This document shows, piece by piece, positions 14,194 through 20,846 of a stretch of 64,000 nucleotides of DNA. Origin of the DNA: Maritimibacter sp. HL-12 (lineage in GTDB: Bacteria > Pseudomonadota > Alphaproteobacteria > Rhodobacterales > Rhodobacteraceae); assembly GCF_900177545.1 (NCBI RefSeq), contig NZ_FXBQ01000001.1, positions 2,288,122 through 2,352,121 on the forward strand. The letters are read 5' to 3'. The translations under genes were made by a program, and so were the position numbers. Below the pieces are notes generated by a model. That model did not search any database. It saw nothing but the letters and a program-made list of their open reading frames with translations, and had not been told where the DNA came from. Each line of letters begins with the position of its first letter. Position 1 is the first letter of the stretch.

Positions 14194-15135
14194 TTACCCC
14201 GGCGGGTGCAGCGCCTTCGAGACCTCCTGTTCGCCCTCGGTGAGCAGGAAATCGAGAAACCGTTCCGCAGCATTGGACAGACGCTTGCCCTTGCGGTGCA
14301 CGGCGAACCAGCGCCGCCGCAGCGGAAAGCCCTGCACATCAAGCACGGCAAGTTCGCCGCTGGCCAGCTCGTGGCGCACCGTGTGCAGCGAGAGCGAGGC
14401 AATGCCGAGGCCGGAGACGACGCCTTGCTTGATCGCCTCGCTGTCGTCGAATTCCATGTGCGTGCGCAGCGTCACGCCCGCCGCCGCGCAGAGCCGTTCC
14501 ACCGCCAGCCGGGTGCCAGACCCCGGCTCGCGATTGAGCAGATCCTGCCGGGCGATCCGGGCGAGCGGAATCGCCTTCTGCCCGACCAGCGGATGATCGG
14601 GCCGGGCCACGAAGGCGATGACGTTTTCAAGGAAGGGCTCGGCGATCACCGATTGCGCCTCCTCCTCGGGCAGCCGCCCGATGATGTAGAGATCGTCGGC
14701 ATTCGCGCCCATCCGCGCAAGCAGCGTTTCACGGTTGGTGATCTGCAGCCGGGGCTCGACCTTCGGGAAGCGGCGTTTGAAGCTGCCGAGAAGCTGCGGC
14801 ATGAAATACTTGGCGGTCGAGACGACTGCGACAGACAGTCGCCCTCCAACCTCCCGGTCGAGATCCTCGAGCCCGGCTTCCATCTCGGCGAGTCGGGCGA
14901 GGATCTCGCGTGCCGCGGCGGTGACGATCTCGCCGGCCCGCGTGAGATGCAATGTCCTGCCGACCTGCTCGGTGAGCGGCATCCCGATTTTCTCTTCCAG
15001 GGTGCGCACTTGCATGGAAACCGAAGGTTGGGTCAGGTGCACTTCCTCGGCCGCTCGCGTGATCGAATGGTGCCTTGCCACGGCTTCAAGAAGCCGTAGC
15101 TGCTGGATCGTGGGCGTGATGATGGGCTTGCTCAT
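14194..15135 (-). CDS. cbbR: LysR-type regulator of the cbb operon
   Basis: A 313-residue LysR-type activator. The N-terminal winged helix reads LRLLEAVARHHSITRAAEEV followed by LTQPSVSMQVRTLE, and the effector domain contains the CbbR-like pieces STAKYFMPQLLG, DDLYIIGRLP and FVARPDHPL. CbbR controls RuBisCO and Calvin-cycle genes in response to metabolites such as RuBP or NADPH. It is divergent from cbbL with about 120 bases between starts, the canonical arrangement, and a T-N11-A palindrome lies in that gap. Confidence 0.93.
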   Translation of the reverse strand: MSKPIITPTIQQLRLLEAVARHHSITRAAEEVHLTQPSVSMQVRTLEEKIGMPLTEQVGRTLHLTRAGEIVTAAAREILARLAEMEAGLEDLDREVGGRLSVAVVSTAKYFMPQLLGSFKRRFPKVEPRLQITNRETLLARMGANADDLYIIGRLPEEEAQSVIAEPFLENVIAFVARPDHPLVGQKAIPLARIARQDLLNREPGSGTRLAVERLCAAAGVTLRTHMEFDDSEAIKQGVVSGLGIASLSLHTVRHELASGELAVLDVQGFPLRRRWFAVHRKGKRLSNAAERFLDFLLTEGEQEVSKALHPPG

Positions 15136-15258: not shown

Positions 15259-16677
15259 ATGGCGAAGACATACAACGCAGGGGTGAAGGACTATCGGGAA
15301 ACCTACTGGATGCCCGATTACACCCCACTCGACACCGATTTTCTGGCCTGCTTCAAGGTGATCCCGCAAGAGGGCGTGCCGCGCGAGGAAGCCGCCGCCG
15401 CCGTGGCCGCGGAAAGCTCCACCGGCACCTGGACGACGGTCTGGACCGACCTTCTGACCGACCTCGACTACTACAAGGGCCGGGCCTACGCGATCGAGGA
15501 CGTGCCGGGCAACGACGAAGCCTTTTACGCCTTCATCGCCTACCCGATCGACCTCTTCGAAGAGGGGTCTGTGGTCAACATCCTCACCTCGCTGGTCGGC
15601 AACGTCTTCGGCTTCAAGGCCGTGCGCGCCCTGCGCCTCGAAGACGTGCGGGTGCCGATCGCCTACGTCAAGACCTGTGGCGGCCCCCCGAACGGCATCC
15701 AGGTCGAGCGCGACAAGATGAACAAGTACGGCCGCCCGATGCTCGGCTGCACGATCAAGCCCAAGCTCGGCCTCTCGGCCAAGAACTACGGCCGCGCCGT
15801 TTACGAAGTGCTGCGCGGCGGCCTCGACTTCGCCAAGGACGACGAGAACGTCAACTCGCAGCCCTTCATGCGCTGGCGCGACCGCTACGACTACGTGATG
15901 GAAGCGATCCAGAAGGCGGAAGCCGAAACCGGTGAAAAGAAGGGCTCCTACCTCAACGTCACCGCGCCCACGCCGGAAGAGATGTACAAGCGGGCCGAAT
16001 ACGCCAAGGAACTTGGCGCGCCGATCATCATGCACGACTACCTGACCGCCGGCTTTACCGCCAACACCGGTCTGGCCAACTGGTGCCGCGACAACGGAAT
16101 GCTTCTGCACATCCACCGCGCGATGCACGCGGTGATCGACCGCAACCCGAACCACGGCATCCACTTCCGGGTGCTGACCAAGATGCTGCGCCTTTCGGGC
16201 GGCGACCACCTGCACTCGGGCACCGTCGTCGGCAAGCTCGAAGGCGACCGCGAAGCCACCCTCGGCTGGATCGACATCATGCGCGACAGCTTCATCAAGG
16301 AAGACCGTTCGCGCGGCATCATGTTCGACCAGGACTGGGGCTCGATGCCGGGTGTGTTCCCGGTGGCCTCGGGCGGGATCCACGTCTGGCACATGCCGGC
16401 GCTGGTCTCGATCTTCGGTGACGACTCGGTGCTTCAGTTCGGTGGCGGCACGCTCGGCCACCCCTGGGGCAACGCGGCGGGTGCCGCGGCCAACCGGGTG
16501 GCGCTTGAGGCCTGCGTCGAGGCCCGCAACCATGGCCGCGAGCTCGAGAAGGAAGGCAAGGACATTCTCACCAATGCCGCCAAGTCTTCGCCGGAACTCG
16601 CGACCGCGATGGAAACCTGGAAAGAGATCAAGTTCGAGTTCGACACCGTCGACAAGCTCGACGTGCAGCACCGCTGA
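15259..16677 (+). CDS. cbbL: RuBisCO large subunit, form IA (green type)
   Basis: A 472-residue catalytic subunit that fixes CO2 onto ribulose-1,5-bisphosphate. The start [10 protein letters not shown] and sequence style are those of proteobacterial form IA. Active-site elements are visible: TIKPKLGLS (lysine near 167-169), the carbamylated Lys193 in [18 protein letters not shown], and loop 6 GTVVGKLEG. The companion genes cbbQ and cbbO, with no carboxysome genes, place it in the non-carboxysomal IAq group. GGGAGGAA (15241-15248) lies slightly far from the ATG but is the only good ribosome site. Confidence 0.98.
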
Positions 16678-16751: not shown

Positions 16752-17108
16752 ATGGCTGACATGCAGGACTACAAGTCGTCGCTTTCCGACGTCACCAGCC
16801 GCAAGTTTGAAACCTTCTCCTATCTTCCGGAGATGGACGACGAGCGCAAGCGCAAGCAGGTGGAATACATCGTCTCGAAGGGCTGGAACCCGGCCATCGA
16901 ACATACCGAACCCGAGAACGCGACCAGCAGCTACTGGTACATGTGGAAGCTGCCGATGTTCGGCGAGACCGATGTCGATGTCATCCTCGGCGAGGCCGAG
17001 GCCTGCCACAAGGCGCACCCGAACAACCACGTGCGCCTCGTCGGTTACGACAACTACGCCCAGTCGAAGGGCGCCGAGATGGTCATCTACCGAGGCAAAC
17101 CGGTCTGA
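16752..17108 (+). CDS. cbbS: RuBisCO small subunit, form IA
   Basis: A 118-residue small subunit that caps the L8 core of form I RuBisCO. It shows the typical pieces [38 protein letters not shown] and [15 protein letters not shown] Shine-Dalgarno AAGGGAG precedes the ATG. It lies 74 bases after cbbL with a hairpin between them and is followed by cbbQ. Length and motifs fit the green-type IA small subunit without carboxysomal features. Confidence 0.97.
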
Positions 17109-17177: not shown

Positions 17178-17987
17178 ATGAACCAGCACGAATCCGATCA
17201 GTTCAAGGTCAAGGCCGAGCCGTTCTACAGGGTCGTCGCCGGCGAGGATGAGCTTTACGAAGCGGCCTATGCCCGGCGCATGCCGGTGATGCTGAAAGGC
17301 CCCACGGGCTGCGGCAAGTCGCGCTTCGTCGAATACATGGCCTTCAAGCTGGGCCGGCCGCTGATCACAGTGGCCTGCAACGAAGACATGACCGCCTCCG
17401 ATCTCGTCGGCCGCTTCCTGCTCGACAAGGATGGCACCAAGTGGCAGGACGGCCCGCTCACCATGGCCGCCCGGATCGGCGCGATCTGCTACCTCGACGA
17501 GATCGTCGAGGCCCGGCAGGATACCACCGTGGTGATCCACCCGATCACCGACCACCGCCGCCAGTTGCCGCTCGACAAGAAGGGCGAGTTGGTCGATGCC
17601 CATCCCGATTTCCAGCTCGTGATCTCCTACAACCCCGGCTACCAGAGCCTGATGAAGGATCTCAAGCAATCCACCAAGCAGCGTTTCGCCGCGCTTGATT
17701 TCGACTATCCCGAGGCCGGGATCGAAGCCGATATCGTCGCCCGCGAAACCGGGGTGGATGCCGAAACGGCGAAGAAACTCGTGCAGATCGCCCACCGCAC
17801 CCGCAACCTCAAGGGCCACGGGCTGGACGAGGGGATCTCGACCCGCCTTCTGGTCTACGCAGGCCAGATGATCGCCGAGGGCGTCGATCCGCTGGCGGCC
17901 TGCAAGATGACGCTGGTCACCCCGCTGACCGACGACCCCGACATGCGCCAGACCCTTCAGGCGGCGGTGGAGACCTTCTTCGTGTGA
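17178..17987 (+). CDS. cbbQ: RuBisCO activase subunit CbbQ (MoxR-type AAA+ ATPase)
   Basis: A 269-residue MoxR-family AAA+ ATPase. CbbQ forms hexamers that, with CbbO, remodel inhibited form IA RuBisCO to release tight-binding sugar phosphates. Walker A is GPTGCGKS (41-48) and Walker B is CYLDEI (104-109). The NPGYQS segment is a sensor region typical of the NorQ/CbbQ group. It sits between cbbS and cbbO, as in other IAq operons. The closely related NirQ/NorQ proteins act on nitric-oxide reductase, but the context here settles the assignment. Confidence 0.95.
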   Translation: MNQHESDQFKVKAEPFYRVVAGEDELYEAAYARRMPVMLKGPTGCGKSRFVEYMAFKLGRPLITVACNEDMTASDLVGRFLLDKDGTKWQDGPLTMAARIGAICYLDEIVEARQDTTVVIHPITDHRRQLPLDKKGELVDAHPDFQLVISYNPGYQSLMKDLKQSTKQRFAALDFDYPEAGIEADIVARETGVDAETAKKLVQIAHRTRNLKGHGLDEGISTRLLVYAGQMIAEGVDPLAACKMTLVTPLTDDPDMRQTLQAAVETFFV

Positions 17988-18066: not shown

Positions 18067-20412
18067 ATGACGATCGACCTCGAAGACTACCGCGCCTGCT
18101 TCGCCAAGGCCCCGCCCGAGATGTTCGACACGCTCGAGGCAACCTTCCACGAAGCCGCCCGGGTGATGTCGCCCGCCGCACTTTCGGACTACATGGAAGG
18201 GGCGAAGGGCTTGTGCAGCCTCGGGCGCGGCTACGATCTCGTGCTGGCCTGGCTCGAGAACATGCCCGCCGTGGTCAAGGAATGCGGCGAGGACGTGATC
18301 CGCGATTGCCTCGGCGCGGCGATGAAGCTTTCGTCGATGACCAGCGGCGAGGTGATCGCGCTCCTGTTCTCCAGCCTGCCCACTGCCGCGCGCCGGCTGG
18401 GTGATCCGGAGCTTCTGCGCGGCTATCTCGGCCTCATCCACCAGCTTTCGGCCAAGGCGAGCCGGGGCCTTCGCCCGATGCTCGCCCATATCGACGAGCT
18501 CCTGTCGAAGCTCACGCTTTCGGGGCTGCGCCGCTGGGCCAATTTCGGTGCCGACGCCTACAAGCGCGACCTCGCTGGGCTCACCCGGTATTTCTCCCTC
18601 GAAAGCGCCGATGCGCGCAAGATGCTCCAGCAGGAGCGACGCGGCACGCTGTTCATCGACACCCAGCGCAAGCTCAACTTCTACCTGCGCGCGCTCTGGG
18701 GGCGCGATTTCTTCCTGCGCCCGACGGCGGCCGATTACGAGGGCTTCCGTCCCTATATCGAGCACCACGTCATGCACCTGCCCGACGCGCTCGACGATAT
18801 TGCGGGCATTCCGGGCCTTGAGCTTTACCGCGCGATGACCGCGCACCAGGCCGCGCATATGCAATACACCACCGCGCCGATCTCTGCCGAGCAGCTCAGC
18901 CCGGCACAGATGTTCTTCATCGGGCTGGTGGAAGATGCCCGCGTGGAATGGCGCGCGGCGCGCGATTTTCCCGGCCTCGCCAAGCTCTGGGGACGGCTCC
19001 ACGCGCTAGAACATCAAAGTCCCCTGGAGCATCCCACGGTCGAGGCGCTGGAGCGCTTCGCCCACTTGCTGCTCGACCCCGAGGCGCTCACCGGCAATCC
19101 CGAACTCGACGCGCTGGGGGCGAAGTTCCACGCCGAGATCGCCGCGCGGGCGGGCGACAACACGCTGTCGTGGCACCTTGGCATGGAGCTTTTCCACGTC
19201 TTCGCTGCCCGGCGTGACGTGCCCTCCTTGCGCATCCTCAACACGATCCGCATCCCCTACCGCGACGACAACCGCTTCGTCTGGGAGTTCGAGGAGTTCG
19301 ACTGGGACGCCCACGGCGGCGAATATGTGCCAGCCAGCCAGCGGCAGGTGCGCAAGTATGTTTCGGTCATGGAGATGGCGCACGAGGTCGATACCGAGCT
19401 TGCCGGGGATGACGCGCAGGAAATCTGGGTCTGCAACGACAATTTCATGCCCTACGAAGATGCCGGCGAGGCCACGGTCAGCTTCAACGACATGTGGGGC
19501 AAGGAGCCGATCTCGGCCCCGTTCCACTACCACGAATGGGATTACCAGGTGCAGCTCTTCCGGCCCGACTGGGCCACGGTCTACGAGCGCCGGGTGAACC
19601 GGGGCGACCCGGAACAGATCGACGAGATCCTCGCCGAGCACAAGCCGGTTGCTCACCGGATCCGCCAGATCATCGACATGCTGAGCCCCGCCGGGGTGCA
19701 GCGGGTGCGCGGCATGGAGGACGGTGACGAGATCGACCTCAACGCGGCGGTCGACGCGATGATCTCGATCCGGATGGGCGAACAGCCCAACCCGCGCATC
19801 ACCATGCGCAACGTGATCAAGAACCGCGATCTCGCGGTCACCGTGCTGCTGGACCTGTCGGAAAGCACCAACGATCTCGCGGGCGACGAAGAAACCAAGA
19901 CGGTGCTCGATCTCACCCGCGAGGCCGCCACGCTGGTGGCCACCGCGATCAACGGAATCGGTGATCCCTTCGCGCTTCACGGCTTTGCCTCCGACGGGCG
20001 GCACGACGTGCATTACTACAAGTTCAAGGATTTCGCCCAGCGGTTCGACGAAGAGGCCCGCGCGCGGCTTGCCGGCATGAAGGGGGGGCTGTCGACGCGG
20101 ATGGGCACCGCGCTGCGCCATGCCGGGGCGGGGCTTCTGAAGCAACCCGAGCGGCGCAAGCTGATCCTGCTGGTCACCGACGGTGCGCCGGCCGATATCG
20201 ACGAGCGCGATCCCCAGCACCTGCGCCACGATACCCGCAAGGCGGTGGAAGAGCTTTACGCCAAGGGGGTTTTCACCTACTGCCTGACGCTGGACCCGAA
20301 CGCGGATGCTTACGTCAAACGGATCTTCGGGGAGAACAATTATACCATCGTGGATCACGTGAACCGCCTGCCTGAAAAGCTGCCCACTCTGTTCGCGAGC
20401 CTCACCAGCTAA
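18067..20412 (+). CDS. cbbO: RuBisCO activase adaptor CbbO (von Willebrand A domain)
   Basis: A 781-residue adaptor that links the CbbQ motor to RuBisCO. The long N-terminal part is family-specific. The C-terminal domain is a von Willebrand factor A fold with the metal-binding DLSES (near residue 596) and a later LVTDGAPADI strand. It follows cbbQ by 79 bases. Length and architecture match CbbO/NorD proteins; the operon position distinguishes it from NorD. The stop codon overlaps a short inverted-repeat element starting at 20411. Confidence 0.95.
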   Translation: MTIDLEDYRACFAKAPPEMFDTLEATFHEAARVMSPAALSDYMEGAKGLCSLGRGYDLVLAWLENMPAVVKECGEDVIRDCLGAAMKLSSMTSGEVIALLFSSLPTAARRLGDPELLRGYLGLIHQLSAKASRGLRPMLAHIDELLSKLTLSGLRRWANFGADAYKRDLAGLTRYFSLESADARKMLQQERRGTLFIDTQRKLNFYLRALWGRDFFLRPTAADYEGFRPYIEHHVMHLPDALDDIAGIPGLELYRAMTAHQAAHMQYTTAPISAEQLSPAQMFFIGLVEDARVEWRAARDFPGLAKLWGRLHALEHQSPLEHPTVEALERFAHLLLDPEALTGNPELDALGAKFHAEIAARAGDNTLSWHLGMELFHVFAARRDVPSLRILNTIRIPYRDDNRFVWEFEEFDWDAHGGEYVPASQRQVRKYVSVMEMAHEVDTELAGDDAQEIWVCNDNFMPYEDAGEATVSFNDMWGKEPISAPFHYHEWDYQVQLFRPDWATVYERRVNRGDPEQIDEILAEHKPVAHRIRQIIDMLSPAGVQRVRGMEDGDEIDLNAAVDAMISIRMGEQPNPRITMRNVIKNRDLAVTVLLDLSESTNDLAGDEETKTVLDLTREAATLVATAINGIGDPFALHGFASDGRHDVHYYKFKDFAQRFDEEARARLAGMKGGLSTRMGTALRHAGAGLLKQPERRKLILLVTDGAPADIDERDPQHLRHDTRKAVEELYAKGVFTYCLTLDPNADAYVKRIFGENNYTIVDHVNRLPEKLPTLFASLTS

Positions 20413-20523
20413 AGCGTTTTGCGATTTTGTCGAGATGCAACGACGAGGCGAAACGCGCGGAACCCATTGATGTTGTGTGCGCTTCGCGAAATACCTGAAT
20501 CACTGCTTTTCGCGAAACGCGTT
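20411..20523. repeat. Small inverted-repeat (MITE/REP-like) element after cbbO
   Basis: The 122-base gap after cbbO begins with AAAGCGTTTTGCGA (20411-20424) and ends with TCGCGAAACGCGTT (20510-20523). The two are imperfect inverted copies (about 12 of 14 bases), and further GCGAAACGCG/CTTCGCGAA words lie inside. The style is that of short palindromic interspersed elements. It also reaches the ribosome site of the next gene. Confidence 0.4.
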
Positions 20524-20534
20524 AGGGGATGGCC

Positions 20535-20846
20535 ATGAAAGAACTCAAACGTTACGTCGGCATCGACAACGACCTGCACGGCGGGATGACCGATACCGGC
20601 AAGATCATCCGCGACGCCTGGGCGTTCGGGCTGATCCCCGAGACGGAAACCTGCGAGGGTTGGCTGGCGCAGGGGATCGAAGGGCTTTGGGTCAAGGTCA
20701 ACGCCGAGTGGGAAAAATACGGCTTCCGCGTTGGCGGCATGCCGCCCGAGATGCAGGAACGCTACCTGCGCATCCAGACCGAGGCGATGGAGCGGGCGAA
20801 GGCCGCGGGCTGGAGCGGCGCGCAGGAGCTTATGGGCGACGTTTGA
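20535..20846 (+). CDS. Small conserved-looking protein downstream of cbbO, function unknown
   Basis: A 103-residue soluble protein, not assigned to a family with certainty. It begins MKELKRYVGIDNDLHGG and contains GKIIRDAWAFGLIPE and TCEGWLAQGIEGLWVKVNAEW, then a charged helical C-terminus. The AGGGG at 20524-20528 is correctly spaced for the ATG at 20535 rather than the in-frame ATG at 20529. It is co-directional with cbbLSQO and the last gene before a convergent gene. A role in carbon fixation or RuBisCO activation is possible from location only. Confidence 0.6.
   Translation: MKELKRYVGIDNDLHGGMTDTGKIIRDAWAFGLIPETETCEGWLAQGIEGLWVKVNAEWEKYGFRVGGMPPEMQERYLRIQTEAMERAKAAGWSGAQELMGDV

Follow-up and report, generated by a model that had tools for sequence, protein, structure and literature searches.

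A probable helper of green form IA RuBisCO: a small conserved protein encoded in or beside cbbLSQO operons

A RuBisCO operon followed by a small gene

The window, i.e. the whole stretch of 64,000 nucleotides that was analysed, contains a RuBisCO operon on the plus strand. The large subunit of a green form I RuBisCO is encoded by cbbL (15259..16677; Pfam RuBisCO_large, 5.4e-139), the small subunit by cbbS (16752..17108; RuBisCO_small, 6e-38), a MoxR-type AAA+ ATPase by cbbQ (17178..17987; CbbQ_C, 6.6e-35; AAA_5, 6.1e-34) and the VWA-domain adaptor of the CbbQO activase by cbbO (18067..20412; VWA, 1.9e-6), which has homologues in the operons of relatives. These genes had been named cbbLSQO in an earlier sequence-only reading, and the names were corroborated by Pfam for cbbL, cbbS and cbbQ and by the VWA domain and position for cbbO. 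CbbL of the window ends in KLDVQHR, a tail of the CbbQO type. Divergent from cbbL, on the minus strand, lies an open reading frame for a LysR-type regulator (14194..15135), which we infer to be cbbR-like from its position and sequence; its homologue is likewise divergent in many relatives.

Downstream of cbbO an open reading frame of 103 codons plus stop, here called X, is found on the plus strand (20535..20846 including the stop; coding 20535-20843). Its ATG is preceded at a distance of 6 nt by a putative, ribosome-binding-site-like AGGGG (20524..20528, plus strand); the frame after cbbO, with a putative ribosome site of its own, was found as described before. Translation could also begin at an in-frame ATG at 20529, but 20535 is the start favoured by the aligned homologues. 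The intergenic stretch between cbbO and X is 122 bp long (20413..20534, plus strand) and carries imperfect inverted repeats at 20479-20491 and 20508-20520; imperfect repeats of the type TTCGCGAAA / GCGAAACGCG were seen between the two genes (window 20405-20540). Neither a consensus promoter nor a terminator was found in the 122 bp, and an RNA structure 5' of X was dismissed as not convincing (fold z = -1.77; 11 of 200 shuffles equally good). The deduced protein has a GRAVY of -0.46 and a pI of 4.9 and is, judging from its sequence, plausibly soluble.

X represents a conserved family without a name

With a four-sequence alignment as query, 187 pattern matches were obtained from a collection of species genomes, 138 of which encode relatives of X. 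The loci of the best 80 of these 138 were examined; two of them (L059 and L060) belong to a single MAG, so that the same X gene is perhaps counted twice. The mean column identity among 52 members was 63%, with Y7, G9, M18, T19, D27, F31, W43, W59, Y62, V66, A88, G92 and W93 invariant and C40 nearly invariant. Nei-Gojobori dN/dS ranged from 0.03 to 0.23 in 16 of 17 close pairs, which were chosen by hand; the remaining pair was saturated at synonymous sites and gave a pN/pS of 0.10. The relatives found and the purifying selection confirmed that X exceeds a chance open reading frame.

The family had been called unknown, and indeed X had no match at E<=1 in Pfam or NCBIfam. When the 52 members were scanned singly for a named family, the best E-values were 0.0059 (Pfam) and 0.0037 (NCBIfam); each of these weak matches was restricted to a few members and they were read as chance. 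As to a phage origin, no match was found among 50,697 phage records and none was confirmed in a scan of viral contigs; one relative of X is present in plasmid records. An AlphaFold2 model of X was confident and helical (pLDDT 87.6; helices 20-31, 45-61 and 71-90). No PDB chain was found at E<1 in the fold search (Foldseek, best E 1.3), and the best Z of VIA-align was 2.7 over 55 residues; the fold therefore gives no function. A PDB profile match (H12, E 9e-5, positions 49-96; next match 0.05) was read as a likeness of helical stretches and set aside. By sequence and model, X is thus an unnamed, strongly conserved family with no Pfam or NCBIfam family and no informative PDB match. In the accessible parts of the open literature on form IAq, cbbLSQO, the gap between cbbS and cbbQ and form IA assembly factors, X is not described, and it is not mentioned in the portions available of PMC5506194, PMC8718961, PMC2942843, PMC6458275, PMC7895386, PMC4660213, PMC12628692, PMC5371394, PMC12175532 and PMC9164163.

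X is linked to cbb genes at most loci

At 70 of the 80 loci (best 80 of 138) X lies on the same strand within 1.7 kb of cbbS, cbbQ or cbbO. The arrangements among these best 80 of 138 were cbbS-X-cbbQ (47), cbbO-X (18), cbbS-X (3) and X-cbbQ (2). The sequence-only reading had proposed a survey of homologues behind cbbO and had named homologues scattered away from cbb genes as the outcome that would speak against it; the order cbbO-X does recur and such scattering was not observed. X follows cbbO in the window, in relatives among the Rhodobacteraceae, in the beta-type sample and in some gammaproteobacteria. One of the cbbO-X loci (L018) has X beside a cbbO remnant: the degenerate piece (L018:9065-9400) stands directly 5' of an intact X, and no CbbL was detected in the MAG concerned. 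At another locus (L043), on a contig of 967 kb, X follows cbbS and the 10 kb beyond it contain neither cbbQ nor cbbO; CbbL of this locus has the CbbQO-type tail KLDVKHK, and CbbQO may therefore sit elsewhere in that genome.

The ten unlinked loci among the best 80 of 138 are L022, L023, L025, L039, L041, L044, L072, L077, L078 and L083. In a tree of X with 89 rows and few columns, the positions relative to the operon were strongly clustered. The unlinked label, which comprises 11 rows including a plasmid of Nitrobacter hamburgensis, needs six changes, at least five of which are forced by well-supported branches. Since the unlinked loci fall among linked ones, exit from the operon looks secondary, and we read the tree as X having left the operon several separate times.

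Some neighbours of relocated X genes are related to inorganic carbon or ions. On plasmid 1 of N. hamburgensis (NC_007959.1) the homologue (L002:9007-9300; 45-46% identical) is divergent from a DabB-DabA-PII set; this set, which is duplicated, is located upstream of a carboxysome operon that has CbbQ and CbbO genes of its own. A gene for a SulP-type permease, possibly a transporter of inorganic carbon (Ci), is located 82 bp upstream of X at L077 (8149-9900), and another gene for a SulP-type permease, again possibly a Ci transporter, is near X at L018 (3771-5552), the locus with the cbbO remnant. Genes for CitMHS-type transporters are upstream of X at L083, and Mrp-type genes and a phosphoribulokinase gene are near X at L078. 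A class II fructose-bisphosphate aldolase with a C-terminal Dabb domain is encoded near the relocated X of L039 (11432-12568); the accessible part of PMC2942843 lists cbbA of A. ferrooxidans with the same two Pfam domains. At L022, L023, L025 and L097, one of which was domain-scanned, the neighbours looked unremarkable on reading the open reading frames.

A second unnamed family, Y, is encoded at 43 of the 80 loci (best 80 of 138), two of which (L044 and L072) hold short remnants. Y is 113-152 residues long with starts as set by the analyst, and its gene occurs close to X, behind cbbO or in the cbbR-cbbL interval (e.g. L004:1803-2207, L014:10312-10713, L274:5648-6082 and L275:9454-9879, among others); in G981 it lies beside X, which is there away from the cbb genes. 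It was not found in the 64-kb window. Pfam and NCBIfam scans of 39 members of Y gave nothing below E 0.01. The model of Y is of the alpha/beta type (pLDDT 92.5); its best structural match, the domain of the Atp11 assembly factor (Z 6.5, 107 residues, 4.8 A), is below the tool's guide value of 8 and was therefore not used as evidence.

X accompanies green form IA RuBisCO

The joint occurrence of X and CbbL was determined in four population samples, the order of genome G629, the order of genome G665, the phylum and the Rhodobacteraceae; the phylum sample and each of the two order samples have genomes in common. The query for X was the single sequence P0001 in the Rhodobacteraceae and a profile in the other samples, and in the phylum sample at most 12 X candidates per genome were scored. 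In the order of G629, X was present in 7 of 61 genomes, and a green CbbL (at least 84% identical) was found in exactly those 7; CbbL-like matches in the other genomes were at most 38% identical. G671, of the same order, has the arrangement cbbO-X and a CbbL 91% identical to that of the window, a pattern as expected if the operon and X had moved together. The order of G665, which we infer to be betaproteobacterial, had X in 11 of 75 genomes, all among the 15 with a CbbL at least 83% identical. X is at most 1.3 kb from cbbO in nine of these eleven (in G955 from a broken cbbO), the exceptions being G665 and G981. G955 carries two copies of X (L273 and L274), one of them beside a broken piece of cbbO with an internal stop. 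The four X-less genomes among the 15 are G982 (carboxysomal) and G951 (cbbLS), both without adjacent cbbQO, and G978 and G967, in which cbbLSQO is present and X was not found; cbbO of G967 is cut by the contig end.

In the phylum sample, X was found in 12 and green CbbL in 11 of 398 genomes, and all 11 have X; the twelfth genome with X is 56% complete and has X beside cbbQ/cbbO. None of the 28 genomes of this sample with a CbbL of 56-59% identity, read as red form I, has X. In the Rhodobacteraceae, X was present in 3 of 198 genomes, all three with a CbbL at least 91% identical, and green CbbL in 8 of 198, a match in G492 (73% over 83 residues) being left out of the count. The five genomes with a CbbL of 83-85% identity lack X; two are carboxysomal without CbbQO and three have cbbLSQO. 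In a class sample, X was found in 1 of 385 genomes, which is the window's own. One-sided Fisher tests gave P-values of 2e-9 (order of G629), 3e-10 (order of G665), 1e-20 (phylum) and 4e-5 (Rhodobacteraceae), with relatedness ignored and the samples overlapping.

Hence, in three samples X was found in no genome other than those with green form IA CbbL, the fourth sample having the one incomplete exception. In none of the four was X found in a genome whose only CbbL was red form I or form II. X accompanies green form IA RuBisCO in these samples but the converse does not hold: nine genomes with green form I lack X (five of eight in the Rhodobacteraceae and four of 15 in the order of G665). Genetic linkage to RuBisCO and co-occurrence with it, two marks of RuBisCO accessory factors, were thus both found for X, and the part of the sequence-only reading that saw in X a RuBisCO-linked factor is supported by them. 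A comparison of 56 operons with X and five without it revealed no separating column in CbbL or CbbS, a separating column being one conserved at 90% in one set with a residue never present in the other; by the same criterion CbbQ had none either.

X is also found where form-I-type CbbO was not detected

The same reading had suggested, as an example, that X could be a further component of the CbbQO activase. This was not shown and is partly contradicted, since eight MAGs keep X with no form-I-type CbbO detected. X and the 52 members had no match to an AAA+ or VWA domain, and CbbQ and CbbO of the window did match in the same scan. CbbL was found in 10 of 13 genomes or records whose X does not lie at an intact cbb cluster; three MAGs with X had no CbbL match. 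In six such MAG regions (L116-L121) carboxysome genes adjoin CbbL. CbbO was searched for in 23 chosen genomes, and no match was obtained in six MAGs with X and a form IA CbbL (G935, G936, G937, G939, G941 and G942), in which gaps are possible; G938 gave only a 30% match, and in G940 CbbO is on the contig of the form II-like gene. CbbL of these eight MAGs (G935-G942) ends in KLDVA, KLDI or KLDVN, two of the sequences being fragments. As far as the text accessible of PMC8718961 goes, CbbQO needs a longer CbbL tail with HK/R, and form IA RuBisCOs of activase-less carboxysome clusters are without this longer tail. In one clade with a short CbbL tail, X is still constrained (dN/dS 0.07-0.11, three pairs). 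X thus persists in genomes without a detected form-I-type CbbO and does not occur only where CbbQO does, with MAG gaps as the caveat to the latter. Conversely, cbbLSQO is present but no X was found in five genomes (G443, G485, G480, G978 and G967). According to the accessible part of PMC4660213, CbbQO reconstituted in vitro is a two-protein complex, and form I RuBisCO of A. ferrooxidans was obtained in functional form from E. coli with X going unmentioned there. The form IAq operon tables for A. ferrooxidans in the portions available of PMC2942843 and PMC6458275 list L, S, Q and O only.

Pairwise distances of X in 55 complete operons, a duplicate operon (L046 = L099) being left out, correlated best with those of CbbO (0.86) and CbbQ (0.85), followed by CbbL (0.75) and CbbS (0.51); the correlation between CbbQ and CbbO was 0.90. 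In the 22 cbbO-X loci the values for X were 0.76 (CbbO), 0.69 (CbbQ), 0.47 (CbbL) and 0.54 (CbbS), and in the 33 cbbS-X-cbbQ loci 0.49, 0.56, 0.32 and 0.34, respectively. Part of this gap may be due to unequal variability of the proteins, CbbL being very conserved. In an exploratory comparison, uncorrected for relatedness, CbbO columns 72 and 99 differed between 56 operons with X and four without it.

Discussion

Taken together, X is probably a helper of RuBisCO. We see about an even chance that it is a RuBisCO-directed accessory factor without a strict tie to the activase, and propose the following mechanism. X, an acidic protein of about 100 residues that is predicted to be mostly helical and is encoded in or beside the RuBisCO operon, would be dedicated, as an accessory protein, to green form IA RuBisCO of Pseudomonadota. 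It would act on RuBisCO itself by binding either of its subunits, an intermediate of its assembly or the L8S8 enzyme, and may thereby raise the amount or quality of active RuBisCO; where CbbQO is present, X would work beside it and not as a structural part of it. A role in assembly, stability or quality, to which we give this even chance, is preferred to one in the activase, since X is kept together with RuBisCOs that are without the activase tail. Several results count against the proposal: the distances of X follow CbbO and CbbQ more closely than CbbL or CbbS, nine genomes with green form I lack X, three MAGs with X had no CbbL match, no CbbL or CbbS column sets operons with X apart from those without it, form I RuBisCO of A. 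ferrooxidans was functional from E. coli with X unmentioned in the accessible part of PMC4660213, and the CbbL tail of L043 leaves room for CbbQO elsewhere in that genome.

A weaker form of the earlier idea would make X a regulator or facultative partner of CbbQO which, for example, binds CbbO or tunes the docking of CbbO on RuBisCO. X lies beside cbbQ or cbbO at 67 of the 80 loci (best 80 of 138), and its more concerted divergence with CbbQ and CbbO, seen in both position classes, fits such a partnership too, as do the two differing CbbO columns from the exploratory comparison. However, we consider it unlikely, since X is constrained where form-I-type CbbO was not found and the CbbL tail motif is absent, the five genomes named above combine cbbLSQO with no detected X, and two proteins suffice in vitro as far as the accessible text of PMC4660213 shows; moreover, one X copy of G955 stands beside cbbO pieces broken by a stop with an intact csoCbbO on another contig, and the distance correlations depend also on protein variability, which is very low in CbbL. 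Less probable still is that X, carried along with the RuBisCO operon, serves as a sensor or adaptor for inorganic-carbon status, in Ci uptake or CO2 concentration, without touching RuBisCO. The Ci- or ion-related neighbours of some relocated X genes (N. hamburgensis, L077, L083 and L078) would suit a sensor, but they are single loci, the neighbours at L022, L023, L025 and L097 looked unremarkable, the main location of X is inside the RuBisCO operon, and Pfam recognised no sensor domain in X or the 52 members. A general function of X in autotrophic metabolism, with mere hitch-hiking in the cbb operon, appears quite improbable: the ten unlinked loci among the best 80 of 138 and the three MAGs with X and no CbbL are in line with it, but in the samples no genome whose only CbbL is red form I or form II was found to have X, and the position of the unlinked loci among linked ones in the tree argues for a secondary exit.

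A RuBisCO-directed accessory factor can be compared with known ones. CbbQ and CbbO share an operon with X at most loci and diverge in correlation with it, but X has neither an AAA+ nor a VWA domain, is kept where no form-I-type CbbO was detected and was not detected in some genomes with cbbLSQO. A pterin-dehydratase-like factor, acRAF, serves RuBisCO assembly in alpha-carboxysomes. Like X it is a small protein of RuBisCO clusters, and the two occur together in several X genomes; unlike acRAF of N. hamburgensis, which matches Pfam Pterin_4a (2.7e-9), X and the 52 members lack a Pterin_4a match, and X does not align with acRAF. RbcX and Raf1 are RuBisCO assembly chaperones of cyanobacteria and plants. 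RbcX is small and helical, is encoded beside the genes of the RuBisCO subunits and binds the C-terminus of CbbL. X resembles it in size, predicted helicity and gene position and would be similar in action if the assembly reading is right. Neither X nor the 52 members had a Pfam-A match to RbcX or Raf1, the presence of these models in the library being unconfirmed, and the absence of both proteins from the fold-search results excludes nothing.

More tentatively, and at somewhat less than an even chance, X, often together with Y, may constitute an unrecognised system for the biogenesis or maintenance of green form IA RuBisCO of Pseudomonadota, which would be separable from CbbQO and unlike RbcX, Raf1 and acRAF. 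Many bacteria that oxidise sulfur, iron or nitrogen, as well as animal symbionts, use form IA RuBisCO, and several such oxidisers and symbionts are among the X loci examined (best 80 of 138). A conserved operon gene without a name in Pfam or NCBIfam suggests that not all proteins required by form IA RuBisCO in vivo have been listed; this would matter for the heterologous expression of these enzymes and for their comparison in vitro.
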